The position numbers were made by a program, and so were the translations under genes. Shown in pieces: positions 2,087 to 37,662 of a DNA stretch of 53,892 bases; the stretch's first letter is position 1, and each line of letters starts with the position of its first letter. Source of the stretch: a virus; IMG/VR virus record IMGVR_UViG_3300027906_000022, positions 1 to 53,892 of that record. The stretch is one strand, 5' to 3'. Under the pieces are notes generated by a model. That model did no database searches and was not told where the DNA came from. It saw only the letters and a program-made list of their open reading frames with translations.

Positions 2087-5000
2087 TTATTCTACGTATT
2101 TAGCTTTCAATTGGTTCAACTTATATATTGCGGTTATTTTTTTATCTTTTATTTCTTTACGCCTTATACTATCTCTCATTATTCCTGGTAAAGCATTTAA
2201 TACTTGTACCCTTAATCTTTTGTGAGCTTTTTCTTTCTCTTTATTATCTTTTCTAGTTTGTTTACCCTTTTCTATTCCTTCTGCTTTTCTTTTAGATTTA
2301 GCATGAGTTTTTATAAGATCATGCTCTTCTATTTTAGCCTTTACATTCCACGTTTTCCACCCTAAACCTAAAGCTATTCTTTGATAATCAGTATTTCTAT
2401 TATCTAATGCTTCAGTGATAGAATTAACTTCATTAAATACTCTATCTAAAGGTATATTTAAAAGTCCAGATGCTACATTACCTACAACATCATAAGCAGG
2501 GCTTAATTGAAATCTATCATCTAACATTACACTATAACCTCTTTCAGCTATTACATCTTTATCTATATCGTGTATGTTTAAAGCAGTATTTACTTTTCTA
2601 AGCTTAGAGCTAAGTGGTGGAGATACACTAGTTAAAGCTATTATCAACTCAGCATTATGTCTAGATTTCTGTAAAGCAGTCATATCTGTACGCTCGCTGA
2701 GCTCTAAAATAACATTTTTAATAGTAGAAACTACAGCTCCTGCAACCCCAGATCCTCTTAAAATAGTATCTATCATGTTGTTAGCAATTCGTTTAACTTT
2801 AGCATCTTCTTGATTCGTTTGTTTCGCAAGCCATGCATCTCTTTCTTTATCTGTTTTAAAATCAGGTTCTTCTTCATCATCAAACCCAGGAACTAAAGCA
2901 AATAAGGCATTTTGTAAAGCAGAAAATATTAAGTTTTGAATAAATCCATAATATACTATCTTAGATAGGTTTGTTTTAATATCTCCTCTACCATTAACTA
3001 TATCTTGCCCAGCTTTTTTCATCAATCTAGTGTACTGCATTGGCGTGTTTTGAAATGCTAATACAAATCTTCCTAAAACTCCTGCTTGTTGAGAAGATAT
3101 AAGCATTGGATCTGCTGATTGCTGTGTTTCATCTGAGATAGCGGAAAAATCTTCAAAAGCTTTAGCTTCTGCTTCTTCAACTGTATAACCTTCTTTTTTG
3201 TAAGTGTTGATTCTATTTCTATAAAATGCCGCACCTCCAGTAGAAATCGCTATACTATCTGCTATTTGTGTAGGTGTAAAACCTAATTTTAATAAATAAG
3301 ATAATACTCCTTGCATGCCTCCTTGTCTGGAAGCTTGTGCAATTTCTGATTCATTAATATCACCTTCTAATCCAGCTCTTCTAGCTTTTAGCTTTGGAGA
3401 ATTAAATAAATAAGCTACATCTTTCCAATATTGTGGTTGATTAGCGAATGCTATACCAGCATTTAAAGGATTATTATCAGACCAGTTTACAAAGTTACCA
3501 GCTGATAACATCTGTAATAAAGCAGATCTTCTATTAAAGAACATTATAGCTCCTACAGAATTATTAATCCAAGTAGTCCAAGCATTTACTATACGTGATG
3601 AACCAGTTTGTTTATTACTTCCGGTTTTCATTCTATATAAAGAATCTTCTAAAGCTTCTCTTATTCTAAATCCATAAACTGCTTCAATTTTATTTAAATT
3701 TTTAGGACTAAATAATATATCAGCATTATCTGTAAATTCTTTTAAATATTCTTTTCTATTTATTTCTCTAGCTAATCTACCTAAATCCCCTACTATAGTA
3801 GTCCCATCCCAAAATTCATTAGGTGGAACATATGTATCTTTTTTAGTTATAAGTTTTACACCTTCAGCAAAAGCGACTAAATCAACATCTGCATTAACTA
3901 AGCTAACTATTTTGTTTTTATCAGTTTTAGATAATCCAGGTATTGTAACACCATCCTTGTTCCATAAGTAAATTCTTATAGCTTCATCGTGAGTATATTT
4001 AGTACCACCTATTTTTTTATTTAATTTTTTCCTAACATTTGGACTAGTTTGTTGTAAAACTTTATAAGCATTTTTAATTCTATTTTTAGCTAATTGCATT
4101 GCGTTAACTCCGGCCATATAAGGTTTTATTAAAGCTTTATCAAAAAACTCTTGATCTAATTCACCTCTTTTGCCCTTACCTGCAAATGTGTACATGGTTA
4201 GACCTCTAAAGTCATCAGCTGAAGGAGGTATAAATAACGTCCATTTCTTTTGGTTTTTACCTTTTCTTCGAGCTAAAATATCTGAGTAAGTATATTCTGA
4301 CTTAACACCCATATTTCGTTCGATCATGTCGTTAAAGTCTTTATCTAGTTTATCACTAAATTTAACTCTAGCTTGTTGTACTTTAGACTTAACATCTAGT
4401 ACATCAAAAACATTTTTAACTGCTTCAATATTTTTAAAAGCATCATCGGCAAAATAAAAATCATTATAACCGTCGGCATATTTACCCACCATCCAATCTG
4501 CTTTAGCTTCAGGAGTTCCATTTTCTAATCCAGTTATGTTTGCTAAAGGTATATTTAAACCAATCTCATCTAAAAACTTTTTAATGTTTATAGCTGAAGA
4601 CTGAGGTCTTGCAGTTAATACAAATATATCTTTACTACCAAACTTACCTTGACGTTTTAAAGCAAGATCTGCTAATGGACCTTTTCTCCCTTCCTTAACT
4701 TCATTAAATTCACTAAAATTAAATTCAGCTCCTAAATTAGTTAATCCTGAAGCTTCTAAAGCAAATTCACCTGCTGTTAAAGTACCTGTTGTCCCGTCTG
4801 GCATTGTATAAAGAACTTTACTATTTGATTGAGCTAATGTATCATCAAAATCAAACACACTAATACCTTTTCTAGATTCTTTATACTCCACACTGTTTCT
4901 AGCATCACTCATAGCTTTATCAGCTGTATTATCTTTAGTAATCACAACTGGAGCTTCAGGTTTAAAAGTTTCATCTACCTTTTGTTGTATTTTAACTAAT

Positions 5001-8000
5001 CTTTTAGCTTCTTTTTTTACTTCTGCTTGAGTTCTTTTTCCGCTAAATAAGTCTCTCATTAATTGTTTTTGATCTACTAGTTTAACATCTTCAGTACCAA
5101 AAAATATTTGAGATAAAGTTTGACCTGTTGGAATATATAATTGAAAACCAAGATCAACACCTGATTCACTCATTCTTATAGCAGCTAAAGTACCGTCAGG
5201 CAGTTTTAATTCACCTTTGTTATAAAGCTCTATACCTGTTTTAAGTAAGTTATAAGGCATGGATTTACTATAATCCTTGTTAACTTTATTATCTACATCA
5301 TCTGATAACCAACCTTGCATAGCTAAAGCTTTTACAGTAGGAAAAACTTCATCTACTCTTTGATCAATAGCTGCTTGAATTAATAACGTGCCTATTGTAT
5401 TTTGAGGAGTTGAATGCTCTTCTGTTCCTTTAACATTTCTTAATGGTTTACCATTAAAATCTACTTCAACTAAATATACAGGAAATAATGTTCTAAATGG
5501 AGATTGTTGAGAATTAGTTGCTTCAGCTCTAATCTCATCAAATACCCAGGCATTTTTTTCATTAGCTTTTACCTTTTTAATTTTACCATTTACTTCTACT
5601 TCAGTTTCTTCATGTAAATAAGATTCAACTGCTTTAGCAAAATCATATAATACTTCTATTTTGTCTTGCTGTCTAGTTACATAACTAGGTTTTTTTATTT
5701 CTTTAACATAAGCATCTGTTAACATTTTATTAGAAGTCATTGGTTCTCTCTTAACATTAACTTGATCACCTTGAGTAATAGAAATATTTTTATTAAAAAT
5801 ATCTGTTACACCATACGCAGATCTATCTATTCCAAACACTGTAGCTTGTTTAATAAATGTTCTAAATTCAGGATATGTATTTAAGAAATCATTTATCACC
5901 CTTGTCATACCTTCTAAAAACATTTCTCCTTCAAACGCAGCAACTTCATCAGATAAATATCTGTCTCTATCTATTATAGTTTTTTCTATACCTTCACTAA
6001 GTCTAAACTTTTTAACATCCTCCGTTAAATATTCAGCTTCTCTTGTGCTTTTTTTAGTACCACTTTCTTTAGGTAGCAATCTTGTTTTTTGCATTATTGA
6101 AGTGGTATATTGAGGAAGTTTTTCACTATATTGCACTCCCCTTCTACCGGCTCTTGTATTAGCTGTAATTTCTGCAGCTGTTTTAGAAGATTTAATTTCA
6201 CCTTTCTTAATAAGTGATTGTATTTTTTGATCTACAACTGTATTAGCTACAATAGCTCCTTTTAAGTTTGCTAAACCTATAAGCAGTCTACCAAATTCAG
6301 TTCTCGCTTTACCCTTTGGTGGAACATTAAATTCACCTTTTCCTGTTATACCTAAGTCTTTCTGTAGTTTTTTAATAGTCTCATTAGATATAGTTCCTCT
6401 AAATTCAGGTTTTAATCTTCTTACTTGTGTTTGACTAGTGCTACCTTTAGATCTTCCTTTAGGATTTGTTATAGCATCTTTTTTAGTTTCTTTATTTAAA
6501 GCTTTAGGATCAATATAATCTTCATAAAAATAATTTTGTACACTAGGAGCAATACCCAATGATCTTCCTTGTACGTCTTTATCAACTTTAGTTTCTTGAC
6601 CTTGCTTTGTTGTTACAGCTGTAGGTGTACTTATATTAAATTCAGGATATAAAGAAATTAATTTTTTAGCATCTTGAATATTTGCATAATCACCCTGTAT
6701 TCTTTCAGCTTCAGAAATTACTTTTCTACCATCAACTACTTTATTTTGTGCATACGTAAGATCAGCACCTTTTTTAAGTTTACCCGCATCTATCCCATAA
6801 ATTTCACCTGCCACTTTAGAACCATACTTGTCTGATATACTTCTAAAATCTGTAGTATAAGATCTAGACTCAGGGTTTATCACAACATCGTTTTTATCAA
6901 CTTTTATAAGATTGTCAATGTTTGTTGGTACTCCTGGTAATTTTCTTGGATCTACTAGAGATTTACCCTTACCTTCAGATTTTTTTCTTTCTTCTAAGTT
7001 TACAGCATCTTCTGCTGTTTCTTTAGCAACTAGTCTAGTTTGTTCTTGAGCTTGGCTTTGGCGTACTAACTTTTTCTTTCTTTCTATTTCTTCCCCTATT
7101 TTAGCACTACCTTCTCGACCAATAGTTTTATATATCCAGTTAGTAAACGAACCTTCTCCTGGTTTATAACTTCTAGTTACTCTGTCAAAAGCATCAACAG
7201 CAAAACCTTCTGCTTGATCTGTAGCTATATCTCCTTTTGCAATATTGAAACCCATAGCTGCTAAAGCAGTATTAAGATATTGTCTATAAAAATCAGTATC
7301 TAATATAAAACTAGCTCTTTTATCAGCCGGTAATTCTTTATATTCTATAGCTAATTCATTTATGTTTTTCTCCGATTGTTTTAAATCTTTTCCTTTATAT
7401 TCATCTATAGCTTTAATAGTTTCTTTAGAAAGTTTGCCACTTCTAAACGCAGCGTTGTTAGCCGCTAAATAGTTTAAAGCTTTTTCCGGTGTATTTAAAT
7501 TACCCGGATCAGTGGCGTTGAAAACTCTAGTAAGAAAATTATCATCTTTTTCTATTTGAACTTCATCTTCATAAGCATATAATCTTTCTTGTAGATATTT
7601 ACTATATTCATCTTCCCAAATAACTTTGTTTTCGTTGTTTATTTCTCCATATATATTATTTAAATCTAAAACAATTTCATTATGAATTCTATTTAAAGCT
7701 TTATTATCACTAGTAGCTGCTGCCTTAAATAAGTTATTAAAGTATTTAGCTTTAGCTTCTGGAGATTTCATCCTAGCATCATCCGTTATATGGCTAAATT
7801 CATGTAAAATAACTGTTCCAGCTCTTAATTCACCTTTAGCTAAATCAGCTTCCATTCCTTCTTTGTTTTGGGTTAAAATAGTTTTACCAAAAACAAGACC
7901 AAAAGTTTTATTTTCTTGTAGTTTATTTAAAGCGTCTGCAAATTCTGCTGTTCCTACCTCTAATCCTGTATCAATTAATAATTGAATACCTTTATCATCA

Positions 8001-11000
8001 TTGGTCCATTCTTCTACCTTAACGTTTTTTACATCACCTAAAATTTGTTTAGCATTTCTGTTAACATTTAATTGGGTACCGAAAGCCCTTGAAGCATCTA
8101 ACGCTTGTTTTTTCCCCCAATTACGATATATATTTTCTTTCTGTTCGTTAGTAAGTTTTTTAAATCTTTTGTCAGTAGTTAATTCACCTTCCTTATTTAA
8201 CCTTAATCCATCAACCCATTCAACCATTCGAGGATTTGACTTAGCTTTATTAATAGCATCTTGTTCAAAATCAGTTCTGGCTTTATTAATTATATATACT
8301 AGTTTATCTTTAGGGGATTTACTATCATATTCTGTATCGTTTTTTAAAGAAATATTATAACTTTTATATAAATTTCCTAAAGCATTTTTAGCAATAGTAT
8401 AATTATTATTTTTAGTAGCAGTTTCTTTTATATTATTTATTTGAGTATCTAAACTATTAAGAACTCCATCAAAATCCTTCACTTGCTGAGCTGTCATTGT
8501 TTTTTTCTTAGCCGCAATCGCTGTATCGGTTTGAGCTTTTGATAAGAAAGGATTTATACCTTCACTTACTAAAAAGTCTCTTTTAATCATTTGAGTTCCA
8601 ATTAACCTATTGATTTCTGGAGCTCCAAGGTTTAAAAGATCTATTGAGTTTTGATCAACAGCTAACCCCATTTCCTTCATTTCCTCCCCAATGTCAAACA
8701 GTAAAGCTTTTTGAACCTCTGGACTTAACTTCTTAAAAGTTTTACCTTGTAAAGTTTTAGATAAACCATTAATATTAAATCGTCTTTTAGAAATAGCTTT
8801 TTCATATTCTTTAGTTATACCCACAGCATTCAATCCACTGTAAGCAATACCAGTTCCTTGTGATAAACCAGCTGTTACTACTGTAGCCCAAAATGTTTCA
8901 TTTAAACCACTTTTAAATTCACCTTCGTCTATATCTCTACCTAATATCCCGGCTTCTGTAACAATTTGTTGTCCTCCAAAAATACTTAACTCTTCAAACA
9001 CCTCCGAACCAGTTCTAATTGCTAAAGGTTTACCAATAAGATTAGTAACTTTAGAATAATTACCTTTGAATAATTGTTCAGCTATAAGTTTTCTATTAAC
9101 TGTACTAAAATCTTTTATAAGTTTTATAGAGTTTGGTGCAGTGCCTAAATATTTAGTAAATACACCTTCTATTATACCATTGGAAAATGAGGCTGTTAAA
9201 ATTTGATTATCATTCAAACGTTTCATGGCTAAAGTCTTATCAATATCCCTCATGGCCATAGTATAATTATACTCGCTTATTTCTCCTTTAGCAAATGCTT
9301 TTTTATATATTTCTTTTTGTCTTAAGGCTTCATCATAAGCGTCAACCTGTATGTTTAAATCTCTAAACGTTTGTGTACCAGCAGTTGTCCCAAAACCTAT
9401 TCCAATAGCGTTAGAAACTGCTGCGTTGCTTAAACCTAAAGCGCTTCCTCCACCTGCTGTAGCTATAGCTAATGTTATATTAGCTGATTGTTGGCCTAAA
9501 GTTCTAGTTATATATTCTAAACTAAACTCTGGACCAGTCATTTCTTTGTAATAATTGTTTTTATCGTTTAATTGTTTTTGTTTACCAATTGCCCATTCTG
9601 AATCGAATAGTGTTGGTAAAGCTAAAAACGTAGAAGTAAAAGCATCATTAACATCTTTAACTATTAAATTCCCTAAACCATATTCTCTATGCGCTGCATC
9701 AATTATATAATCATATTGTTTTCTATCAGCTAAAGAAGCATAGAAAGCTTCAGAATTAGTAATTAATTCATCTATTGCAACTTCTCTATCTCTAGCTAAA
9801 TTATGAAAAGTACTTTGAGCACTAGCTAATTTACCAGATAAAGTTTCTATATCAGCTATCCTATCTGAGCTAGGATTTTTTTCTGTTCCTCTGATGGATA
9901 ATATAGGGCCAGTTTTAGTAGGAGAAGAGACAATAGTATAACCATCAGGTAATTCTTCCCCAATGTTATTTATTGTTTCTACAATTTCTTTTATTTTAGG
10001 TTCATAAAAAGTCTTAATATGCTCAACTTGTGCTTTTTGATCTTCCTCCTGTAATCTTTCTCCTATAAAATCCCAGGTATTTTTCATACCACCAGCGAGT
10101 TCATATGTTTCTTCAATGTCTCCTTTCTCAAACATTTCTAATACATCTTCATCTAATTTAAAATCTGTATCTTTAAATACATTTCCACCTAAATATTGTT
10201 CTATTGTTTTACCTTCTTTTAAAGCTTTTGTTTGAAGTATTTTATAAATATTGTTTGGATCATTATAAAAATTAGCTAGTTGTAATAAGTCTTTTGGTTT
10301 AGTTTCCGATAAAAAATCCCCTAAAAGACTTGTTTGACCTTGATTTATTTTATTAAAAATTAAATCGTTAATACCTTGTGATGCTAAATTTTCTAAAGCT
10401 TGGTTGTTAATTCCGGACCTTATTAATTTCTCTCTTAAACTATCATCTAAACCTTCTAATGTACTATAGTTTGTAGCTAATTGATCTATATCTTTACTGT
10501 TGGAATAAAAACCCCACATACCAGCTCGAGCAAATTTAGAAGTAGTATCTTTTTTTTGTTGTAACAAGTAATCTTTAATTGCCTCTATTTCTTCTGAAGA
10601 AAAACTCCCATTTGCTTTTAACTCTTTAATTAAATCATCTCCAAAATTATTTTCAAAATAATCTAATCTAGTTTCAGGATCATCTTTAATTTTTACAAAA
10701 TCTTGATGATTTTTAGCATCCATTATCGCCGCCATCGTAGACAAAGCTTTAAAAGATCTTTCTTGCATTTTCTTAAACTCCTCTTTAGTTATATTATTTT
10801 GGAAAAAATCATCTAAATCACCTGCTGGTAAGTTTGCTATTACTTCTCCGTCTTTCAAAACATTATATGTAGTAACTTCTTCTTCACCTCTATTCATTCC
10901 CTCCCCTACTTCTACTATATCTGTTATTTTTTCTAATTCATAAGGAGTACTATCTTTTAATAACGCATTTACAGAATTAACGTTTTTGGAATTTTCTTCT

Positions 11001-11692
11001 ATACTTTTACCTAAATTACTAGCGCTAATACCTATTATCTCATCATCAGTTTTAAGTTTTTTAGCATTTTTTAATTCTTTTAGTATTTGAATAGTTTCAT
11101 TTTTTCTTCTTTTACTAGGATCCAGTAATTCTACTAAATCTATTTCTTTATCACCTATCATAACCGAGTTACCCCAGGTTTCTCCAGCTTGAGGATCATA
11201 AAAAGGTACTTCTTTTCGTAACCAATTTACAATAGCATCTTCTTTTTGATGTAAAATTCTATCAGGATTTTCAATAGCTTGATCTAAAGTTAAAGTTGTG
11301 AGTTGGTCAGGATCGTTATTACGAGCTATAATTTGTGTTTCTAAATCTTTTCTGACTTTAGCTTCTTCTAGTCTTTGCGTGTTAAACTTACTAGAGGTAG
11401 GATTTGAAACACCATCTATATAATTGCTAGAATACTTGTCGTTATATTCTTTTTTAATATTATTTACTATTTTTGAATAACGAGAATTCGAAGCTTCCAA
11501 TTGTGATTCCAAAGATAAGGATGCTGTGTCCTCTCCCGCAGCCGCATCCAGAGCATTGGGGTCTTTCTTTACTTGTTTAACTTCTACTTTGTTAAAATAT
11601 TTAAAGTCTTCTAAACCAAGCCCTGCTTCATTAGCTAAAGCCTGGAGTTGTTCTAGAGTTAGTTTTTCTCCATTTAATATATATACTTCCAT
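2087..11692 (-). CDS. Giant internal virion (ejection) protein, polyvalent
   Basis: 3201 aa, last of four genes in T7 gp13-gp14-gp15-gp16 order, so probably a head-stored protein ejected with the DNA. Visible parts: an N-terminus like other marine-phage giant proteins (MEVYILNGEKLTLEQL); a hydrophobic Gly/Ala-rich segment near 745-790; a zincin motif HEFSH at 1297-1301; a short sigma-region-2-like stretch near 1490-1520 (VDAFDRVTRSYKPGEGSFTN); a HAD-type phosphatase segment starting DFDDT at 2281 with a later LTARP; and a C-terminal region starting FFNRRSALLQML that resembles the LPD38 domain of large polyvalent proteins. No SLT transglycosylase motif and no RNA polymerase DxDGD motif were seen. 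Domain names rest on motif recognition, not searches. Confidence 0.8.
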   Translation of the reverse strand: MEVYILNGEKLTLEQLQALANEAGLGLEDFKYFNKVEVKQVKKDPNALDAAAGEDTASLSLESQLEASNSRYSKIVNNIKKEYNDKYSSNYIDGVSNPTSSKFNTQRLEEAKVRKDLETQIIARNNDPDQLTTLTLDQAIENPDRILHQKEDAIVNWLRKEVPFYDPQAGETWGNSVMIGDKEIDLVELLDPSKRRKNETIQILKELKNAKKLKTDDEIIGISASNLGKSIEENSKNVNSVNALLKDSTPYELEKITDIVEVGEGMNRGEEEVTTYNVLKDGEVIANLPAGDLDDFFQNNITKEEFKKMQERSFKALSTMAAIMDAKNHQDFVKIKDDPETRLDYFENNFGDDLIKELKANGSFSSEEIEAIKDYLLQQKKDTTSKFARAGMWGFYSNSKDIDQLATNYSTLEGLDDSLREKLIRSGINNQALENLASQGINDLIFNKINQGQTSLLGDFLSETKPKDLLQLANFYNDPNNIYKILQTKALKEGKTIEQYLGGNVFKDTDFKLDEDVLEMFEKGDIEETYELAGGMKNTWDFIGERLQEEDQKAQVEHIKTFYEPKIKEIVETINNIGEELPDGYTIVSSPTKTGPILSIRGTEKNPSSDRIADIETLSGKLASAQSTFHNLARDREVAIDELITNSEAFYASLADRKQYDYIIDAAHREYGLGNLIVKDVNDAFTSTFLALPTLFDSEWAIGKQKQLNDKNNYYKEMTGPEFSLEYITRTLGQQSANITLAIATAGGGSALGLSNAAVSNAIGIGFGTTAGTQTFRDLNIQVDAYDEALRQKEIYKKAFAKGEISEYNYTMAMRDIDKTLAMKRLNDNQILTASFSNGIIEGVFTKYLGTAPNSIKLIKDFSTVNRKLIAEQLFKGNYSKVTNLIGKPLAIRTGSEVFEELSIFGGQQIVTEAGILGRDIDEGEFKSGLNETFWATVVTAGLSQGTGIAYSGLNAVGITKEYEKAISKRRFNINGLSKTLQGKTFKKLSPEVQKALLFDIGEEMKEMGLAVDQNSIDLLNLGAPEINRLIGTQMIKRDFLVSEGINPFLSKAQTDTAIAAKKKTMTAQQVKDFDGVLNSLDTQINNIKETATKNNNYTIAKNALGNLYKSYNISLKNDTEYDSKSPKDKLVYIINKARTDFEQDAINKAKSNPRMVEWVDGLRLNKEGELTTDKRFKKLTNEQKENIYRNWGKKQALDASRAFGTQLNVNRNAKQILGDVKNVKVEEWTNDDKGIQLLIDTGLEVGTAEFADALNKLQENKTFGLVFGKTILTQNKEGMEADLAKGELRAGTVILHEFSHITDDARMKSPEAKAKYFNNLFKAAATSDNKALNRIHNEIVLDLNNIYGEINNENKVIWEDEYSKYLQERLYAYEDEVQIEKDDNFLTRVFNATDPGNLNTPEKALNYLAANNAAFRSGKLSKETIKAIDEYKGKDLKQSEKNINELAIEYKELPADKRASFILDTDFYRQYLNTALAAMGFNIAKGDIATDQAEGFAVDAFDRVTRSYKPGEGSFTNWIYKTIGREGSAKIGEEIERKKKLVRQSQAQEQTRLVAKETAEDAVNLEERKKSEGKGKSLVDPRKLPGVPTNIDNLIKVDKNDVVINPESRSYTTDFRSISDKYGSKVAGEIYGIDAGKLKKGADLTYAQNKVVDGRKVISEAERIQGDYANIQDAKKLISLYPEFNISTPTAVTTKQGQETKVDKDVQGRSLGIAPSVQNYFYEDYIDPKALNKETKKDAITNPKGRSKGSTSQTQVRRLKPEFRGTISNETIKKLQKDLGITGKGEFNVPPKGKARTEFGRLLIGLANLKGAIVANTVVDQKIQSLIKKGEIKSSKTAAEITANTRAGRRGVQYSEKLPQYTTSIMQKTRLLPKESGTKKSTREAEYLTEDVKKFRLSEGIEKTIIDRDRYLSDEVAAFEGEMFLEGMTRVINDFLNTYPEFRTFIKQATVFGIDRSAYGVTDIFNKNISITQGDQVNVKREPMTSNKMLTDAYVKEIKKPSYVTRQQDKIEVLYDFAKAVESYLHEETEVEVNGKIKKVKANEKNAWVFDEIRAEATNSQQSPFRTLFPVYLVEVDFNGKPLRNVKGTEEHSTPQNTIGTLLIQAAIDQRVDEVFPTVKALAMQGWLSDDVDNKVNKDYSKSMPYNLLKTGIELYNKGELKLPDGTLAAIRMSESGVDLGFQLYIPTGQTLSQIFFGTEDVKLVDQKQLMRDLFSGKRTQAEVKKEAKRLVKIQQKVDETFKPEAPVVITKDNTADKAMSDARNSVEYKESRKGISVFDFDDTLAQSNSKVLYTMPDGTTGTLTAGEFALEASGLTNLGAEFNFSEFNEVKEGRKGPLADLALKRQGKFGSKDIFVLTARPQSSAINIKKFLDEIGLNIPLANITGLENGTPEAKADWMVGKYADGYNDFYFADDAFKNIEAVKNVFDVLDVKSKVQQARVKFSDKLDKDFNDMIERNMGVKSEYTYSDILARRKGKNQKKWTLFIPPSADDFRGLTMYTFAGKGKRGELDQEFFDKALIKPYMAGVNAMQLAKNRIKNAYKVLQQTSPNVRKKLNKKIGGTKYTHDEAIRIYLWNKDGVTIPGLSKTDKNKIVSLVNADVDLVAFAEGVKLITKKDTYVPPNEFWDGTTIVGDLGRLAREINRKEYLKEFTDNADILFSPKNLNKIEAVYGFRIREALEDSLYRMKTGSNKQTGSSRIVNAWTTWINNSVGAIMFFNRRSALLQMLSAGNFVNWSDNNPLNAGIAFANQPQYWKDVAYLFNSPKLKARRAGLEGDINESEIAQASRQGGMQGVLSYLLKLGFTPTQIADSIAISTGGAAFYRNRINTYKKEGYTVEEAEAKAFEDFSAISDETQQSADPMLISSQQAGVLGRFVLAFQNTPMQYTRLMKKAGQDIVNGRGDIKTNLSKIVYYGFIQNLIFSALQNALFALVPGFDDEEEPDFKTDKERDAWLAKQTNQEDAKVKRIANNMIDTILRGSGVAGAVVSTIKNVILELSERTDMTALQKSRHNAELIIALTSVSPPLSSKLRKVNTALNIHDIDKDVIAERGYSVMLDDRFQLSPAYDVVGNVASGLLNIPLDRVFNEVNSITEALDNRNTDYQRIALGLGWKTWNVKAKIEEHDLIKTHAKSKRKAEGIEKGKQTRKDNKEKEKAHKRLRVQVLNALPGIMRDSIRRKEIKDKKITAIYKLNQLKAKYVE

Positions 11693-11702
11693 ATTTTATT
11701 TT

Positions 11703-13385
11703 TTAAAAGAGTGATGCTAAACTTGATGGTGGTATTGCTTGTGCGCCTATAACTTTCATTCCGTCTGTGCCTACTCTATAAACACCTGCTGGGTCTTCAC
11801 CTTTTGCTGGAAAATAAACTATTTGTTGATCGTAACCTTTTGGTTTTATCGGAACAGCAAACAGTGATCCAAGGTTTGGATTTTTTGCTTTTAAACCAGC
11901 TCTCATTCTTTCAGCAAAAGTAGGACCATCATCTTTAACAATTTTTTCTACATCATTAGTTACCCTCATATACACATCGTCACCCGCGCTATATGTTTGA
12001 CCTGCAGCATTAAGAACATTATTATCATTTAAATATTTAAGCAGTTTAGAATCTACTTTTTTTCTTACTAAACTTACTCCTTTGGTTGCGGGATCTTGCA
12101 TTCCTCCAAATATTCCTTCTTTACCAGTTAGTATATTATTTCTAATTTGTAAATTAATCCAAGTTTTTTTCTGTTCTAACGTACCTCCATCTAAAAAATC
12201 TTTTACAGAATCATAAGTTTTATTCCCCATAACAACTTTACCTGAAACATCATAATTATTAGCTAGGTTAGTTGCTATAACTGCAGTTCTATTTTCACTT
12301 AATAAAGTCGCAGTTTCTGAACTTATCATTGCATTGAATTCATCGCTATTGTTAAGTTTATTTATATCAACAATTTCATGTGATTTTATACTTACATTAT
12401 TATTAGCTAAATTTTCAGTAGTTTCATAAGTTAATATAGGTGTATCATCTTCAGTTCCTTCTCGATCTTGCCCTACGTTTGTATGAACAAACGCTTTATC
12501 CATAATATTATTATCTTTATCAGTGAACCCACTAACATGCAATACTTCATCTCTATTTAATTTTTCACCCATAGGTACAACAAAATCAAAACCTTCTTCA
12601 CCTTCGTAGGCATTAAAGTTTATCTCTCTTTCAAAAATATAATTACCATTTTCATCTTGTTTTATATTACCAGCTTCAATACCATTTTTAAGTACATCTT
12701 TAAATTTAGGATGTGCTTTCATATGTGTTATAAACGAACTGTTAGCAGGAATACTAACTTTAGAATGCAACACATTGTCATTACCTGAAACTTTAAGTGT
12801 TCGCGAAGAAGTAGCTCCGTCATAAAGAGTATTAATATCTGCCCCTGAACTTGCGTCTAATGTTATAGTGTTTAAAAGTTGTTCGCCGGTTTCCATATCA
12901 CCTATTACAGTATCTGTATTATTAGAATCTAATTTAGATTTTTTATATGCTTCTACATCCGCCAGATATCTACCCATAGTAGTTAAACTTTTGTTATTAT
13001 ACCTGCTAAAATTTGTAAGTATTTCTCTTTTAGCTTTTTCATCTTCGGGGGATAAATCTCCAAACTGTATATCTATTTGAGCTTGAGTAGCTTCTTCCCC
13101 TCTTTTTATAACTTCTGCAGACCACTGTTCATAAATACCTTTATCTTTAATTTGTTCTTCTCCTTTTAGTAATAAACCATCGACAATTTGATCATTAGCT
13201 AACATAGTTGAAACCCTATATTCATTTTTTAATTGTTTCAATTCATTAGTTTTCTTTTGATTAGCTACATAAGCGTTACCTAGTTGTGCAAACATGTTTC
13301 CAAGTGAAGTTAATCCTTGTCCACCTGGGTTAACTTCTAGTTTATTAGAGATTGTATAGTCTGCTCCTGGTATTTTATATCCCAT
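11703..13385 (-). CDS. gp15-like internal virion protein candidate
   Basis: 560 aa, soluble, with long charged, probably helical stretches around residues 40-170 and a mixed alpha/beta C-terminus. No motif is recognised. The call rests on position: it lies between the gp14-like alanine-rich membrane/coiled-coil protein and the giant gp16-like protein, matching T7 gp14-gp15-gp16. It would form part of the internal core and the channel through the host envelope. Confidence 0.55.
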   Translation of the reverse strand: MGYKIPGADYTISNKLEVNPGGQGLTSLGNMFAQLGNAYVANQKKTNELKQLKNEYRVSTMLANDQIVDGLLLKGEEQIKDKGIYEQWSAEVIKRGEEATQAQIDIQFGDLSPEDEKAKREILTNFSRYNNKSLTTMGRYLADVEAYKKSKLDSNNTDTVIGDMETGEQLLNTITLDASSGADINTLYDGATSSRTLKVSGNDNVLHSKVSIPANSSFITHMKAHPKFKDVLKNGIEAGNIKQDENGNYIFEREINFNAYEGEEGFDFVVPMGEKLNRDEVLHVSGFTDKDNNIMDKAFVHTNVGQDREGTEDDTPILTYETTENLANNNVSIKSHEIVDINKLNNSDEFNAMISSETATLLSENRTAVIATNLANNYDVSGKVVMGNKTYDSVKDFLDGGTLEQKKTWINLQIRNNILTGKEGIFGGMQDPATKGVSLVRKKVDSKLLKYLNDNNVLNAAGQTYSAGDDVYMRVTNDVEKIVKDDGPTFAERMRAGLKAKNPNLGSLFAVPIKPKGYDQQIVYFPAKGEDPAGVYRVGTDGMKVIGAQAIPPSSLASLF

Positions 13386-13398
13386 ATTGTTTTATTAT

Positions 13399-13548
13399 TT
13401 AAAAAGTTTTTTTATATGCCCTATAAGCTTTTCTACTTGTATCTACATTTTTCATTAAACCTGCTTGATACATTCCAGATTTATTCATTGCATTACTAGA
13501 CCAATCCTTGTAACTCATGGGGGTATTAGCGCCGCCTCCGGCACCTAC
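13399..13548 (-). CDS. -1 frame extension of the gp14-like protein
   Basis: An open -1 frame of 49 codons continues directly from the last sense codon of the gp14-like gene. It begins with a Gly/Ala linker (VGAGGGANTP), then MSYKDWSSNAMNKSGMYQAG, and ends in a basic segment before TAA at 13401-13399. Read through a -1 slip it gives a 306-aa protein. It fills a 159-nt space that otherwise has no gene in an operon where genes nearly touch. If there is no frameshift, a stand-alone 39-aa ORF could start at the ATG at 13518. Confidence 0.55.
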   Translation of the reverse strand, partial: VGAGGGANTPMSYKDWSSNAMNKSGMYQAGLMKNVDTSRKAYRAYKKTF

Positions 13549-13554
13549 TTTCCC
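13529..13554 (-). promoter_or_regulatory. Programmed -1 frameshift signal: GGGAAAG plus hairpin
   Basis: GGGAAAG occupies 13554-13548 in the phase X XXY YYZ of the upstream gene (ATG GGA AAG), right before its TAG stop. It is the same heptamer used by lambda G/GT. Three nt later a GC-rich hairpin can form: GTGCCG, loop GAGG, CGGCGC (13544-13529), six pairs including one G-U. The 3-nt spacer is shorter than the usual 5-8. Such GC content is rare in this genome. Confidence 0.55.
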
Positions 13555-14329: not shown

Positions 14330-14731
14330 TTAAATTATCACTTTTATCATTTCGTGTGATGGGGTTTTATCTATACTCCACCCTATTTTTTCATGTATTT
14401 TTAATAAGCTATTACTCCTACTTATAGACATCATGTATTTACTCCCAGCTTCTTTAACCATTTGTTCTGCTGTAAGTATTAACAGTTCTATAGCTTGTTT
14501 ACGTATTTTTTTATCTGCATTAGGATTAGATATAATCCAGTCAAGCCATACCATTTTAGAATTGCTCCAGTATAAAAATCCAGCTACTATATTTTCACCT
14601 TCATTCTCTATCATTATACCACCCGTACCATTATCCGGTAACATATCTTTTGCCATTACGGGCCAATTCCACGCTTTCCACCAGTCTGATAATATTTCAT
14701 AATCAGACTCAGTTAATGTTCTTGTATTCAT
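14330..14731 (-). CDS. GNAT-like acetyltransferase fold protein (gp13 position)
   Basis: 133 aa. It reads like a short GNAT domain: an N-terminal acceptor-side region, a VAGFLYWSNSKMVWLDWIISNP strand pair, a helix with the KKIRKQAIELLI segment, and a final strand with HEKIGW. T7-like phages place a similar short GNAT-like internal protein (gp13) just before gp14, and the order here is the same. The acetyl-CoA loop is not a clean Q/RxxGxG/A, so enzymatic activity is uncertain. The leader is TTAAATTAAATTAA. Confidence 0.65.
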   Translation of the reverse strand: MNTRTLTESDYEILSDWWKAWNWPVMAKDMLPDNGTGGIMIENEGENIVAGFLYWSNSKMVWLDWIISNPNADKKIRKQAIELLILTAEQMVKEAGSKYMMSISRSNSLLKIHEKIGWSIDKTPSHEMIKVII

Positions 14732-14741
14732 TTAATTTAAT

Positions 14742-16181
14742 TTAATATGATGACTCTACAAAATCTGAAGATACAGCAAATAATTCTACTGGATTAGATC
14801 TTGATGTGTCGTCTGTTTCTATTGTGACAGTTGCATAATAACCTTTAACACCAGTCATTGCGCTACCAAAAATAACTTCACCTGTCGTTGCTGTACTATT
14901 ATTTACTAAGTTTGCAAAGTATTTTCCTTCTTTTTTAACAAAACCAGCATAACGTACGGGTTGATTAGCTAATAGCACTGCGGTTCCTGTGTTACCAGCC
15001 GAGTCATAAGCTCCATCAGTATAACTTAACACCGTGTTACAAGAATCTACTAATTCAAAAGATCTTGCGGCATCAAATTGACTCACCTCCCAACCATTAC
15101 TACCTTCGTAGTTAACTGTTTTAAATACTTTAGACAAACTCACCTCCGGATTAAAAACAAATTGTATAGAAGAATTGTATTGGGTTCCGTAAAAATTATT
15201 TCTATTAGGTGGTATAGTTGTAGTATCGTAATGTTTCCATAACCCTCCATCTTTAAAGCTATAATAATTACTTTGTAAACTGAAGATTTGATCTGGTATA
15301 TAGTTGAAAAAACTTGTCCAACCTAATACTCTTTCGTCAAAAACTAATGTAGCTGTAGAAGGAGAAGGGTTAATAGTACCATCATGTGCTTTAGGACTTT
15401 GTTGTAGTGATAATACATATTGTTTATTATATATATCATAAGCCCCTAATGCTTTTCCCGCACCCCAAGTTGTACTATCTAATACACCAAATTGATCTCT
15501 AAAATAATCAATCATTCCGTAATTAGCTATTTCTGTTATACCATCTCTAGATAATCTTAATACTGCATTTCTATTTTTATCAGTAAAATATTTTTGATAT
15601 CCATATACTGCAAAACTTTCTGGATTATTACTAATACCATATTCACCTGCATAAGGAATTATATCACCTATAACCATATTAGAAGCTGATAAACTTCCTC
15701 CACCTTCAGCATTATAAATAACATCTTTATCTATAGGTGCTCTACTAACTTTATCTTGTTGGAAAATAATCAATGCTGTATCTTCAGCATATAATTTTTG
15801 GATAGAACCGTTGATTGGATCAGCAGCTTTTGTGATATCAGTACCCACGGAGAAAACATTTGAATTGTTTATACCAGTTCGTGAGTTAAAAATACCTGAA
15901 TAAATCATAGCATTTGATCTCACAGAAGAATTAGGTTCATCTTCTACTAAATAAGCTTTAACCCCGTAGTCTACGTTAGTATTATTATAACCACCCCTTA
16001 TTCTCGCCTCTTCTATAACCCAACTATCTGCATTTACTGACGTAGCAAAAACTGGATAATGACCATCAACTCCTGTAGGTACACCAAAAGAACCATTCCA
16101 ACCCGGCGCGCTTGTTGCTGAGTCATAAGTCTTTTTCAAAAGAAAAGAATTAAAGTATTTTACTTCTATAATAGCTCCCAT
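14742..16181 (-). CDS. Tail nozzle/tube-associated protein, second part
   Basis: 479 aa, beta-rich, with many Tyr, Asn and Ser and no membrane segment. It follows 30 nt after the 1351-aa tail protein and precedes the internal virion genes. Its content (repeated beta strands, readings such as YGISNNPESFAVYGYQKYFTDKNRNAVLRLS) resembles the beta-propeller-like distal half of large phage nozzle proteins. Together with the 1351-aa gene it may do what a single gp12-like tail tubular protein B does elsewhere. Inferred from position and composition. Confidence 0.6.
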   Translation of the reverse strand: MGAIIEVKYFNSFLLKKTYDSATSAPGWNGSFGVPTGVDGHYPVFATSVNADSWVIEEARIRGGYNNTNVDYGVKAYLVEDEPNSSVRSNAMIYSGIFNSRTGINNSNVFSVGTDITKAADPINGSIQKLYAEDTALIIFQQDKVSRAPIDKDVIYNAEGGGSLSASNMVIGDIIPYAGEYGISNNPESFAVYGYQKYFTDKNRNAVLRLSRDGITEIANYGMIDYFRDQFGVLDSTTWGAGKALGAYDIYNKQYVLSLQQSPKAHDGTINPSPSTATLVFDERVLGWTSFFNYIPDQIFSLQSNYYSFKDGGLWKHYDTTTIPPNRNNFYGTQYNSSIQFVFNPEVSLSKVFKTVNYEGSNGWEVSQFDAARSFELVDSCNTVLSYTDGAYDSAGNTGTAVLLANQPVRYAGFVKKEGKYFANLVNNSTATTGEVIFGSAMTGVKGYYATVTIETDDTSRSNPVELFAVSSDFVESSY

Positions 16182-16211: not shown

Positions 16212-19200
16212 CTAGGGATAAAGTACGGGTGCAGACACGGTAGTTCTAGCACCAAGTGCATTAAACGTAGCAGTATAAGATCCATCTTTAGTGTATTCCC
16301 AATTAACACTTGGTCTATAAAATGTTTTAACAACACTTCCACCAAATGTAGCTTTTGTAGTAAGGTTTAAATCAGTATATAATTGAGTTACATATTTAGT
16401 TATATGTTCTTTAGCATAATAAGTTACACCACCTACATTATATTGATATTGTTGAGGAGTAGAAACACCACCTGCATAATTATAATCCCCCATTATAAAC
16501 CCTTGACTTACATTTATATTTTTAGTAGAAGCACAATTATTCCAATTACAACCTGTTCCTTCTAACGCCCCCATTGTTATTCTATATTCGCCTGGTAAGT
16601 CAAAAGCAAAAACTCTTCTTACTCCAGACGTACTAGTTAAACTAGCTCCTAAAGTCATTTTATTTGTACCACTTGTATTAGTCATTCCTCCTTCACCTAC
16701 TGCTCCATATGAACCAGAATATGTACCACTATAATCAGATGTAGTACTTACCCCAATCAATGAATTATCAACATCTACTGCCACGGTCCAAGGGCTAGCA
16801 GAACTTGCTCTATATTCTACTGTTGCTTGTACTTCAATAGCTCCAGAAAGCCCTGTGTTACTTGATTCTCCCCAAAATTGTACGTAAAAAGCTCCTTCAC
16901 TTATACCTAAACCAGCTGACTGTTTGTCTCTAATGAAAGTGTAATCACCTGTATCACCTGGAGTTGTACAATAAAGACTGCTGTTAGTTGTAGCTGGAGC
17001 AACTAAAGAAGTTCCATATACATTAGCAGCGATTGGTCCTGTAGGTGTTGTATCTAAAGCAGTATAACTTGGGCTAAAATAATATCTTGAACCATCTCCA
17101 TCGTTCATAGGGGGAGAAGTTTGAACAAATCTACCAGGAACCTCAGGTTGACCTATTGTAATATTTAAAGTACAATCAGCTGTTAATCCACCTGCATCTG
17201 TTACTCTAGCAACTACAGCGTAAGTTGCAGCTCCAGTAGCAGCCGTAATTACACCTTGGTTAGCTACTGTTGTCATTGTAAATATACTAACTGGACTTCC
17301 TCCTTGTGTTTGAGATACAATAGACCATGTTAAGTTATCTGTATCTCTTGTGGTATCTGCAGATCCATTTTTACCTGTTAATGTAACTATAGCAGGCAAA
17401 GCATCAGTGGTTACCGTAATATTTCTTGGACATGTACCATCTATTGTAGGTGGTATATTACCTAATTGTCCTGATTGAGCTGGTGGAGTACTTTCGTCTC
17501 CACTTATATCATATGTAAAATTAAATTCATAATTACCAGTAGTAGAAGCATCAGGTCCATAATAAAATTTCTCAGCCGTTTTTAATTCATATGTATAAGG
17601 ACTTCCCGCAGATTCTACTAATGTAAATTTACTTGTAACATTTTCAGGTATTGCTTTGCTATCAAAAACACTCCATTTTCCATTTGCTGGATCAGTATCA
17701 ATTCTTGCACTAGGTATTTGAGTTCCAATAACATCTTCCCCGTAAAACGGACCAGCAACTACAGTATTAAGTGCATCATCTTCTTCTAAATTAAGTACAA
17801 ATCCTCCAGTAGACCATACTCCTCCCGTGTCTGTAGCAACCGCCGTGTTTAAATCTGATATTAAACCTGTTGTAGAAGTTTCCCAGTAAATATCTAATCT
17901 AGAAACTTCTGGTTCAGTTTCATAAATTGCTAAATATTCTATAGGATCATAAGGGCTACTTGCATCTGCTATTACTCCAAAAGCTTGAGTAGTAATTACT
18001 TGTCCTATTAAAGGATTAGATTTAGCTGTATAAAAACCCCATACATCAAGTGTATTAACTATAGTAACATCTATATCAAATAGATCTCTTAAATCTTGAA
18101 TAATACTAACTGTATCACTTAATCTTCCGGGATAAAACTGTTCGTTACCAGCTGTTGTTACCACTCCGGTCGCTGCATCATTTTGAACTCTACCAAATAA
18201 TTGTACAGAACTTCTAAATTGTTTTTGTTGTGGTCCAACTTCACTAAGATCTCTAGGAACTTTATTTATATTATCATTTATTAATACAATATTTGATAAA
18301 GCTCCACCAGTGTTTGTTCCATCAGGATTACCTTTCATCACTCCAGGTAAATATACATTATAATATTCTTGTTCTTGTTGTTTAACTACAATTTTATAAG
18401 AATACCAACCTAAAGGATTATAGTTTGCGTTAGTTTTATCTGAATTATATAAACCCGGGGTACCATTTTCTTTAGGTACTATAGCTGGAGAATCACTATT
18501 AATCGTGTCATTAAATAAAACTTTTAAAGATTCGCCTGGCCAAGCTGGAGCAACTGTATCTGCACAACCACCAGTTGCAGGGTCACAACGATAAGGACTA
18601 TAAACAGTATCAGCTCCAAATCCCCCAGCTGTTAAGCTTGCTAAACTATTAGATAATATTGTGCTTGATTGTCTACCAAATTTATCTGATAAAACAATAC
18701 CAACTTGATAATTTCTATTCTGTTTTAGAGAATGATTAGGATATTCAGTAATTGCGTGACTACTATACGCTAATGTGTTTGCTGCTTTATCAGACACACC
18801 TACTTGATAATCTAAAGAAGGAGGTGGAGTATGTTTGTCTTGAAAATTACCATATGTAATTCTATTACTTATTAACTCTTGAGCTTTAGCTCTTACAGGT
18901 ACTCTATCATATACCCTTATTAATTCATCTTCTGGTAAAGTTTTATAAGGTTTTGTAGATTCATAACTATAAATATACACATCATCCGTAAGACTAGTAT
19001 TCCATGGAGGAGCATTTTCTACTTTAATAGTATCTACTACTCTTATAGCTTGGCCATCAGATTCTTTATATAGAATATCTATTTCTGTAATTTTAATTGG
19101 GGATGTTGTTGTAGCTTGAAGAACAGCGCGGGTTGCAGGAAGAGGAATAAGTAAATCTATTTTTGTTACTTTGTTTTCCATAAAATCTACAATAGTACTT

Positions 19201-20267
19201 TCATAAGTAAGTTTTTCATCATCACTTATAAAATAACCATCTTGTTTAGGGATAAACATTGATTGAGTAAATGGTGCAAATATAGAATATTCACCATCAT
19301 CGAATTTAAATCTATAACTAAATCTTATAAATTTATCTTCTAAAAATTGAGGATCACCACCATAAGTAGCGTCTAAATAAGGGTTTGCTGTTCCATCTGG
19401 TAATGTTGTAGATGTAACATCATACATGGTAGTTTCTAATCCACCAAAAGTTAAAGCAATGTTGTTTGCTATAGTGTTAGATTTATTTGTATCAAAACTA
19501 GTAACGCTATTTATTTTTGTTACGATAGTTCCACTTTTAACACCTGTGCCTGATACACCTAGTCCTACTGCAACTACTCCCACAACATTATCTACTATAA
19601 TAGTCTTAGAATCACTAACAACACCATTAGTATCCGCCGTTATAACTGGTTGACCAGCTTGACTACTTACATTTAAAACTTCTATAGGTTGATAAGGATT
19701 ATATTTAGATACAGATATAGAATCTTCATCAGTATAATAAGTTGGTACTACATAAGCACTACCAAAGCTATTAGCTGCATCAACATTTATTTTTCTAGGT
19801 TGGTTTCTATTATCAGTCCAAAATAAAAGACCTTCAATAATATTAATCCCTATTATATGATTAGTTTGTGAGAAATTTAAAAAAGCACCTTCTACTAATA
19901 CAGCAAATTCACCACTCTGTTGGTTGTACCCCATGATATAGTTTTTTGCTGCAGGGTTATATATAATATTAGTTTCAGCTTGAGTGTCAAAATTATCTGT
20001 CCAAAAACTATATATAGTTGTGTTATTTTCATCTACAAATTCACCTATACATTTAATGTTAGCAGCACCTACAAGAGTAGAGAACTTTTGCCCGTTAAAT
20101 AATACTTCTGAGTTTCCTAAAACGTTTTCTAATGCCCCCACATCTGAACCTTCTGATCTACTGATCTGAACATTTTGCGCATCGCGATATTCTCCAGATG
20201 GTAACAGCCTGTCATCCAGGTCTTTGTTCATCTTGGACTTTATAAAAGCGTTTTTAACTTCAGCCAT
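16212..20267 (-). CDS. Large tail tubular/nozzle protein (gp12-like)
   Basis: 1351 aa. The N-terminus (AFIKSKMNKDLDDRLLPSGEYRDAQNVQ, then SEGSDVGALENVLGN) is a signature I recognise from large nozzle or muzzle proteins of marine and Bacteroidota podoviruses. The region about 1000-1100 has an Ig/cadherin-like character (TVTTDALPAIVTLTGKNGSAD, then YAVVARVTDAGGLTADC), suggesting an inserted adhesive domain. It lies directly after the gp11-like gene, matching T7 gp11-gp12. Probable role: terminal part of the short tail tube and contact with the host surface. Confidence 0.7.
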   Translation of the reverse strand: MAEVKNAFIKSKMNKDLDDRLLPSGEYRDAQNVQISRSEGSDVGALENVLGNSEVLFNGQKFSTLVGAANIKCIGEFVDENNTTIYSFWTDNFDTQAETNIIYNPAAKNYIMGYNQQSGEFAVLVEGAFLNFSQTNHIIGINIIEGLLFWTDNRNQPRKINVDAANSFGSAYVVPTYYTDEDSISVSKYNPYQPIEVLNVSSQAGQPVITADTNGVVSDSKTIIVDNVVGVVAVGLGVSGTGVKSGTIVTKINSVTSFDTNKSNTIANNIALTFGGLETTMYDVTSTTLPDGTANPYLDATYGGDPQFLEDKFIRFSYRFKFDDGEYSIFAPFTQSMFIPKQDGYFISDDEKLTYESTIVDFMENKVTKIDLLIPLPATRAVLQATTTSPIKITEIDILYKESDGQAIRVVDTIKVENAPPWNTSLTDDVYIYSYESTKPYKTLPEDELIRVYDRVPVRAKAQELISNRITYGNFQDKHTPPPSLDYQVGVSDKAANTLAYSSHAITEYPNHSLKQNRNYQVGIVLSDKFGRQSSTILSNSLASLTAGGFGADTVYSPYRCDPATGGCADTVAPAWPGESLKVLFNDTINSDSPAIVPKENGTPGLYNSDKTNANYNPLGWYSYKIVVKQQEQEYYNVYLPGVMKGNPDGTNTGGALSNIVLINDNINKVPRDLSEVGPQQKQFRSSVQLFGRVQNDAATGVVTTAGNEQFYPGRLSDTVSIIQDLRDLFDIDVTIVNTLDVWGFYTAKSNPLIGQVITTQAFGVIADASSPYDPIEYLAIYETEPEVSRLDIYWETSTTGLISDLNTAVATDTGGVWSTGGFVLNLEEDDALNTVVAGPFYGEDVIGTQIPSARIDTDPANGKWSVFDSKAIPENVTSKFTLVESAGSPYTYELKTAEKFYYGPDASTTGNYEFNFTYDISGDESTPPAQSGQLGNIPPTIDGTCPRNITVTTDALPAIVTLTGKNGSADTTRDTDNLTWSIVSQTQGGSPVSIFTMTTVANQGVITAATGAATYAVVARVTDAGGLTADCTLNITIGQPEVPGRFVQTSPPMNDGDGSRYYFSPSYTALDTTPTGPIAANVYGTSLVAPATTNSSLYCTTPGDTGDYTFIRDKQSAGLGISEGAFYVQFWGESSNTGLSGAIEVQATVEYRASSASPWTVAVDVDNSLIGVSTTSDYSGTYSGSYGAVGEGGMTNTSGTNKMTLGASLTSTSGVRRVFAFDLPGEYRITMGALEGTGCNWNNCASTKNINVSQGFIMGDYNYAGGVSTPQQYQYNVGGVTYYAKEHITKYVTQLYTDLNLTTKATFGGSVVKTFYRPSVNWEYTKDGSYTATFNALGARTTVSAPVLYP

Positions 20268-33211: not shown

Positions 33212-33703
33212 CTAGTTATCTCCTGGTTCTGGCCATGTTCCACCTTTATTGCTTTTACTGACATTGAATGCTTTAAGATAAGCATTCTTTTGAGCTTCAG
33301 TTTGTGGTATAACACCTTTTGAGATTTCCTTACCATAGTTTGGACCATATGTCTCTAGAGCTTTTTTTCCTTCACCAGTATTAGCTTTTTTAATAGAATC
33401 CCACACACCAGAAACAAAAGTCAAGTTTCTCTCTGATGTCTTTTTGGCCTCTCTAGCTTTGTGTAACTTCTTCCCATGCTCTAATACCGCATCAAGATTA
33501 TAAGTTTGTTGAGCAGCACCTTTACCCATTATTTCATCGACTTTAGCAGCACCTTTTTGGTAACCTGATTGTCTAGCTGGTCCGAAGTTTTGAGTATAAC
33601 CTCTTGCACTACCTAAGTAATCAAGTTGCTTTGCAGCATCTGCTGGGTCTTTTGCATTGACAGCACCACCTTGAGCAGCACCTTTTTTGTTGTTTTTATT
33701 CAT
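33212..33703 (-). CDS. Hypothetical Gly/Ala/Lys-rich protein
   Basis: 163 aa. It has an N-terminal Lys/Ala/Gly-rich tract and the element KGAAQ or KGAAK repeated three times, then charged helices. No recognised domain. It lies within a run of small genes around the head module. Confidence 0.55.
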   Translation of the reverse strand: MNKNNKKGAAQGGAVNAKDPADAAKQLDYLGSARGYTQNFGPARQSGYQKGAAKVDEIMGKGAAQQTYNLDAVLEHGKKLHKAREAKKTSERNLTFVSGVWDSIKKANTGEGKKALETYGPNYGKEISKGVIPQTEAQKNAYLKAFNVSKSNKGGTWPEPGDN

Positions 33704-37405: not shown

Positions 37406-37662
37406 AAAACAACAACCACATCTTGTTCTTTAATTACGTGGTATATTTTTTCATCTACATCTATTTTATGACCAGCATGTCTATCGTAGTATATTCGATC
37501 ATTTGGTTTTAAAACACTTACTTGATCACCTACGGATAATATACTTGCCTCGACGTATCTAATATCTTCTTTATTTATTTCCCCCAACAATAAACCCCCT
37601 TTTGTTTCAGTGGTTCCTTGTTGTATTTTTTCAATAACTAAACACTTACCTATTGCTTTCAT
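37402..37662 (-). CDS. groES: Co-chaperonin GroES
   Basis: 86 aa. The mobile loop is visible at 14-30 (GTTETKGGLLLGE, the GG-hydrophobic motif that binds GroEL). It is followed by GDQVSVLKPNDRIYY and the C-terminal IYHVIKEQDVVVVL strand. Slightly shorter than the usual 95-100. It overlaps the 3' end of groEL by 17 nt, so it is downstream of groEL, the reverse of the usual bacterial order. It caps the chaperonin cage encoded next door. Confidence 0.85.
   Translation of the reverse strand: MKAIGKCLVIEKIQQGTTETKGGLLLGEINKEDIRYVEASILSVGDQVSVLKPNDRIYYDRHAGHKIDVDEKIYHVIKEQDVVVVL

Follow-up and report, generated by a model that had tools for sequence, protein, structure and literature searches.

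A very probable programmed -1 frameshift at the end of a gene for a likely internal virion protein of crAss-like phages

The gene end and its surroundings

The window analysed here is a viral DNA of 53,892 nucleotides (IMG/VR record IMGVR_UViG_3300027906_000022), which is AT-rich and carries its structural genes on the minus strand. One of these genes, encoding a protein of 257 aa, ends in ATG GGA AAG TAG, with a GGGAAAG heptamer in phase and adjoining the stop, as an earlier note made from the sequence alone had described it, correctly to the base. Also as described there, the -1 frame is open for 49 codons and is shut by a TAA just before the next gene, the ATG of which follows after a gap of 13 nt. 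The 257- and 306-aa product lengths given in that note agree with the ORF and with its extension by the 49-codon -1 frame (Table 1). The extension peptide is VGAGGGANTPMSYKDW...AYKKTF and opens with VGAGGGANTP. An assembly error is ruled out by an independent contig (L001), which differs from the window at 3 of 10,771 bases and at none in the frameshift locus.

Table 1. Features at the 3' end of the 257-aa gene and flanking genes; positions refer to the window
Feature	Position	Strand	Basis or remark
0-frame gene, 257 aa	13545..14318	-	ORF; probable gp14-like internal virion protein
Slippery heptamer G_GGA_AAG (GGGAAAG)	13548..13554	-	in 0-frame X_XXY_YYZ phase
0-frame stop TAG	13545..13547	-	directly 3' of the heptamer
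Stem-loop GGTGCCG-GAGG-CGGCGCT	13528..13545	-	2 nt past the heptamer; probable frameshift stimulator
-1 frame extension, 49 sense codons + TAA (13401-13399)	13399..13548	-	translation
Next gene, 560 aa, gp15-like by position (ATG at 13385)	11703..13385	-	ORF; same order kept in isolate phages
Preceding gene, 133 aa, gp13-like by position	14330..14731	-	match to phrog_17252, E 6.5e-35

In-frame XXXYYYZ heptamers make up 0.9% of codons. Of the 34 genes of the window, this is the only one with a heptamer close to its stop and, before the next gene, a gap that the -1 frame crosses unbroken; a search for a second frameshift site among these genes found no other with all three features. Another TAG-ending gene (33212-33703; 163 aa) is followed by a gap of 204 nt, down to 33008, across which the -1 frame runs without a stop for 71 codons until the next gene; no slippery heptamer lies near its stop.

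The stem downstream of the heptamer (GTGCCG/GAGG/CGGCGC) contains one G-U pair, extends to 7 bp and has a minimum free energy of -12.2 kcal/mol. The earlier note had considered this GC-rich hairpin to be out of character for the genome. It is present at the position given, but it is not exceptional for its own composition: 36 of 200 dinucleotide shuffles fold equally well (z -0.94), so that by itself it is not significant.

The window represents a crAss-like phage (Crassvirales and relatives), as indicated by its muzzle, portal and terminase. The terminase (TerL), portal and capsid proteins match head-and-packaging PHROGs, and the protein encoded at 14742-16181 matches PF25729 (crAss_MUZ_C; E 1.6e-14). 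The portal is common to 87 phage records, nearly all with hosts among the Flavobacteriaceae (Flavobacterium, Cellulophaga, Maribacter, and Tenacibaculum phages). The muzzle is apparently split over two genes, at 16212-20267 (1351 aa) and 14742-16181 (479 aa); its C-terminal domain was found in the latter, which is the one of the two that was scanned. Elsewhere (37646-39211), a GroEL-like protein was recognized by eye, and related phages also have annotated GroEL genes.

Around the 257-aa gene, the order is muzzle, acetyltransferase-like protein, 257-aa protein, a protein of ~450-650 aa and a giant protein, which parallels T7 genes 12-16, i.e., the podoviral series of a nozzle followed by gp13-, gp14-, and gp15-like proteins and a giant gp16-like protein. 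In MW202828, the counterpart of the preceding 133-aa gene by synteny carries the annotation of an N-terminal acetyltransferase subunit. The giant protein, of 3201 aa (2087-11692), follows the gp15-like gene and is probably the gp16-like virion protein. It has no Pfam match; a HAD-like motif, FDFDDTLA, was noticed by eye.

The 257-aa protein has a hydrophobic N-terminal segment, long helices and a C-terminal helix rich in small residues that ends in GMGK; a hydrophobic N-terminus and a helical body are also features of T7 gp14 and other podoviral internal virion proteins. It found no match in Pfam, PHROGs or the PDB, or by tblastn among annotated phages. Its profile, however, aligns with those of the syntenic structural proteins of Cellulophaga phage phi38:1, the elemo phages, Panino and others (hhalign 97.2%, E 3.4e-11), all of which match phrog_13764, a virion structural protein. 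The AlphaFold (AF2) model is all helical with a mean pLDDT of 75, the N-terminal 29 residues being of low confidence. Its top match in BFVD is an 'Internal virion protein' (A0A218MMJ5; E 1.9e-3, probability 1.00 but TM 0.40), whilst a Foldseek search of the PDB gave nothing significant. From the homology to isolate proteins, the T7-like gene order, the helical model and the BFVD match, the protein is probably a gp14-like internal virion protein. Thus, the label in the earlier note is probable on the grounds of gene order, weak fold similarity and profile homology; no significant sequence match to T7 gp14 was found.

Recurrence of the slippery site and the stem among homologues

Homologues were collected from viral and genome collections, and 177 distinct genes with enough downstream sequence were kept. 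They were divided by a rule that is blind to the heptamer, i.e., whether or not the 0-frame stop lies >45 nt from the next gene; 176 could be scored, 29 with and 147 without such a gap. A slippery heptamer in phase and ending 0-2 codons before the stop was found in 25 of the 29 gap genes vs. 5 of the 147 others (Fisher 2e-21). Raw p-values such as this one overstate independence, because the frameshift-type genes cluster partly by tail cassette; among phylogenetically independent pairs on supported branches, ~10 of 12 bear out the association, with practically none to the contrary (sign test, median p 0.002).

Together with L134, a contig that ends before a next gene can be recognized, the 25 gap genes make up 26 frameshift-type genes. 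Their heptamers are GGGAAAG (13), GGGAAAT (4), AAAAAAG (4), GGGAAAC (2), GGGAAAA (1) and TTTGGGG (1), with overlapping GGGAAAG/AAAGGGA in L134. In E. coli, G_GGA_AAG is described as highly prone to frameshifting (PMC5009743). The heptamer adjoins the stop in 20 of the 26 and precedes it by 1-2 codons in the other 6. In all 25 gap genes with a heptamer, no stop interrupts the -1 frame until 32 nt or less before the next ATG; the same holds for the +1 frame in 4 of 25 and for the 0 frame in 2 of 25. The stop is TAG in 21 of the 29 gap genes vs. 14 of the 147 others; some of the frameshift-type genes end in TAA.

A stem of 4-8 bp, starting 2-9 nt after the heptamer, is present in 23 of the 26 frameshift-type homologues vs. 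17 of 147 controls. Their summed stem score is 303, compared with 86.5 +/- 24.7 in dinucleotide shuffles, and it was reached in none of 300. Complementarity between the loop and the downstream tail, taken over all homologue sites, amounts to 136 vs. 105 +/- 12 in permuted controls (7/1000). Within the first 45 nt past the heptamer, loops complementary to the 3' flank of the stem were seen in L036, L038, L072, L087, L106, and L134, the best in L036, L038, L087, L106, and L134 (for example, CUACA/UGUAG). These loops may form H-type pseudoknots at bacterial frameshift sites. Such pairing was sought in the window and was not found there; hence, only the stem is claimed for it.

The phase and spacing of these elements bear on the possibility that the RNA polymerase, rather than the ribosome, slips at a homopolymer. 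AAAAAAG, found in four homologues, would be a plausible site for that. However, long homopolymers are absent from the GGGAAAG/A/T/C heptamers, the sites remain in X_XXY_YYZ phase and the stem stands at ribosomal spacing, which makes transcriptional slippage the least probable of the explanations considered, hardly deserving of weight.

Thus, the programmed -1 frameshift proposed in the earlier note is strongly supported by the recurrence of heptamer with stop, stem and open -1 frame in 26 homologues. The alignment of relatives which that note had suggested shows both the heptamer and the extended frame across divergent homologues, with the heptamer itself varied. On this comparative evidence, the end of the 257-aa gene is very likely a programmed -1 ribosomal frameshift cassette. 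No such gap is found in 147 of the 176 scored homologues, and L005, a close relative of the window, has a short in-frame end; the tail would therefore be dispensable or replaceable. Relatives with a single uninterrupted frame, which the earlier note had regarded as pointing to a mutation or a sequencing error, exist in form, since many homologues have no extension or carry a tail in frame. The recurrence of the slippery cassette across the tree and the occurrence of the same tail both in the -1 frame and in frame (see below) argue that the stop is not a stray mutation.

Extension peptides and the frames in which they are read

The -1 tails of divergent phages, the bodies of which are mostly only ~50-65% identical, are homologous. 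Clear pairs are VVPATTGKTVDEFEMPDFSKMGDNAFQG (L036) with VAPATTGETVGKMVMPDFSTMGDNAFQG (L038), where conservation begins at the heptamer; SSVNPTPTYTRSELMNTFGGAQVK (L108) with SSVSPTSTRTYTRSELMDIFGGAEVK (L258), both related to the tails of L026 and L004; and KPNDTVGFYSSLFDD (L046) with KPNDTVGFYGNLFNN (L106). Further homologous tails are those of L004/L026, L072/L087, and L034/L048/L103. Substitutions in the aligned -1 codons number 63/54/106 at positions 1/2/3, a third-position excess; the pairs overlap partly and were aligned as protein, which leans this count towards conservation. The comparative sequence data establish that the cassette exists, that it recurs in divergent homologues and that the -1 peptide is selected at the protein level. 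In the window, the first 10 residues of the tail share 80% identity with the -1 tail of L007, and among the relatives found, conservation of the 49 residues is limited to these 10.

The extension might instead be translated independently, as a small gene with a start of its own, or be reached in the 0 frame by reassignment of the stop. An in-frame ATG does occur after 11 codons of the -1 frame of the window (PMSYKDW), and reassignment of TAG to Gln is known in some crAss-like phages. An independent start was rejected, because many homologous tails lack Met altogether (those of L002, L004, L007, L026, L034, L048, and L080), and the conservation between L036 and L038 starts at the heptamer itself. 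Readthrough or reassignment of the stop was likewise rejected: past the TAG of the window, the 0 frame shuts after 9 codons, so that readthrough cannot reach the tail, and the scarcity of open 0 frames and the TAA stops of some frameshift-type genes speak against it as well. Both variants are considered very improbable.

Some tails are reached by different routes in different phages. The -1 tail of L080 (PPVEVGEEWGSYTPSL) is in frame in its relative L079 (PPTEVGETWGSYTPTL). L040 encodes the -1 tail of L051 (VNTVSTLTPQGYSF) in its +1 frame (VSTVSTLTPQGYSF), after GCC TTT GGG TAA C; this +1 peptide (L040:3729-3805) is 82% identical over 17 aa to the tail of L051. TTT GGG TAA C also occurs in L138, where the +1 tail is a different one and stays open until 5 nt before the next gene. 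The +1 frames of L040 and L138 end 5-9 nt before the next gene, and their -1 frames do not reach it; TTT GGG TAA C is a candidate +1 frameshift site in both. In L009, GGG directly precedes the TAG, which is compatible with a variant in which a simpler P-site slip would occur.

These observations also bear on whether the tail is merely decaying, i.e., whether an indel disrupted a tail that had once been in frame and left a neutral stop. The tails are evolutionarily labile, the gap state changing at least 19 times on the homologue tree, and one gene offers an apparent case of real decay: L019 (3670-3708) carries NKIDVEFKRIS, a remnant of a long in-frame domain, in the -1 frame past its stop and has no slippery site. 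In contrast, the heptamer exactly at the stop, the stem and the open -1 frame are combined in 25-26 distinct genes, and their -1 peptides are conserved. Since the -1 tails are homologous, and one of them is in frame and another apparently in the +1 frame of relatives, neither mutation nor assembly error accounts for them; decay is already contradicted by the comparative data and is very unlikely. The long in-frame C-terminal domain itself (SDRRLKKNIK...VDYSKIDVEFK) is present in L022, L037, L050, L088, L118, L167, and L255. It resembles Peptidase_S74, the endosialidase chaperone (E 3.4e-4 in L088, just short of the Pfam cut-off), which is odd on a supposedly internal protein.

A frameshift could also be real and yet serve the next gene, with shifted ribosomes re-initiating at its ATG and the tail peptide mattering little. 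The -1 stop lies 4-31 nt before the next ATG in nearly all frameshift-type homologues, and Bacteroidota make little use of Shine-Dalgarno sequences, which would suit such coupling. However, genes lie close together throughout these operons, divergent phages conserve the protein sequence of the -1 peptides while their codons change synonymously, and tails recur in L079, where the tail is in frame, and in L040, where it is in the +1 frame. As the sole purpose of the frameshift, coupling is therefore improbable; as an extra role it is possible, and would leave the conserved peptides unexplained.

The added tails measure 15-49 aa, are rich in Gly, Ser, Thr, and Asn and are unrelated between many lineages. 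Being short and mutually unrelated, and given the frequent changes of the gap state, they look like exchangeable modules, which different relatives appear to reach through a -1 shift, through what looks like a +1 shift, or without any shift. A search for further copies of the tail modules in the retrieved homologue loci and in the window yielded none that was convincing.

Proposed mechanism and relation to known systems

In the programmed frameshift favored here, ribosomes at G_GGA_AAG would be delayed by the stem 2 nt downstream, perhaps also by the adjacent UAG. In a fraction of them, the P- and A-site tRNAs would re-pair one base back (GGG AAA). These ribosomes would read on as GUA GGU GCC... 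for 49 codons, while the others end at the UAG. A single mRNA would thereby yield two products, the 257-aa protein and, in smaller amount, one of 306 aa whose C-terminal tail is flexible and rich in Gly, Ser, Thr, and Asn. The slippage itself, its efficiency and the entry of both forms into the virion are what we infer from the cassette. By analogy with T7 10A/10B, the most likely use is to provide a fixed, sub-stoichiometric number of tailed subunits in an internal or ejection complex, and such a structural role is also the most economical function.

C-terminal extension by frameshifting is found in gene 10A/10B of T7 and T3, in Lactobacillus phage A2 and in the coat and tail proteins of the Listeria phages A118, A500, and PSA; the Ig-like and other extensions of phage coat and tail proteins occur side by side in -1, +1 and in-frame versions, for which a shuffling of modules has been put forward (PMC5009743). 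The present genes resemble these systems in having the stop near a slippery site, in a predicted minor, C-terminally extended virion protein and in related extensions attained by -1 or apparent +1 shift or in frame. Unlike the major coat and tail proteins of those phages, which often bear Ig-like domains, the protein concerned is probably of the internal or ejection type, with short non-Ig tails, and the phenomenon involves at least 26 distinct genes of crAss-like phages. With the G/GT tail assembly chaperone of lambda, the window shares the heptamer G_GGA_AAG and the -1 direction. The gene and its product are different, however; the phages considered here are short-tailed (podovirus-type) and have no tape-measure chaperone, and the extensions are 15-49 aa long. 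The isolate members of phrog_13764 (gp99 of Cellulophaga phage phi38:1, and the proteins of the Flavobacterium elemo phages and Maribacter phage Panino) share the operon position of the 257-aa protein as well as its profile homology but, in those examined, the C-terminal tail is in frame and there is no slippery cassette.

In phi-crAss001, according to the structure paper, cargo proteins are stored in the capsid and tail and then ejected; frameshifting is not mentioned there (PMC10172136). Among the open-licence papers searched, none was found to describe frameshifting in ejection proteins or in crAss-like phages. Tentatively, and as a possibility that we rate below even, slippery site, stop, stem and tail may form a mobile cassette that is exchanged onto the end of an ejection-channel protein, with selection fixing the fraction of tailed subunits. 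If so, -1, +1 and in-frame solutions would replace each other while the tail, which is perhaps host-facing, is swapped.

Recoding of phage virion proteins is known for coat, tail-tube, and tail-chaperone genes, to which the present findings would add an internal, probably ejected, protein. They concern a group of very abundant phages, in which the cassette recurs in many lineages; heptamers and tails vary among these, one alternative apparently uses a +1 shift, and one tail is naturally fused in frame. As a practical consequence, 15-49 residues at the C-terminus of the gp14-like protein would escape automated annotation in many genomes. As most of the relatives are phages of marine Bacteroidota, they supply a natural collection of frameshift signals directed at ribosomes for which Shine-Dalgarno sequences count for little, and the two predicted forms are a tangible starting point for asking why an ejection complex would need one subunit in two versions.
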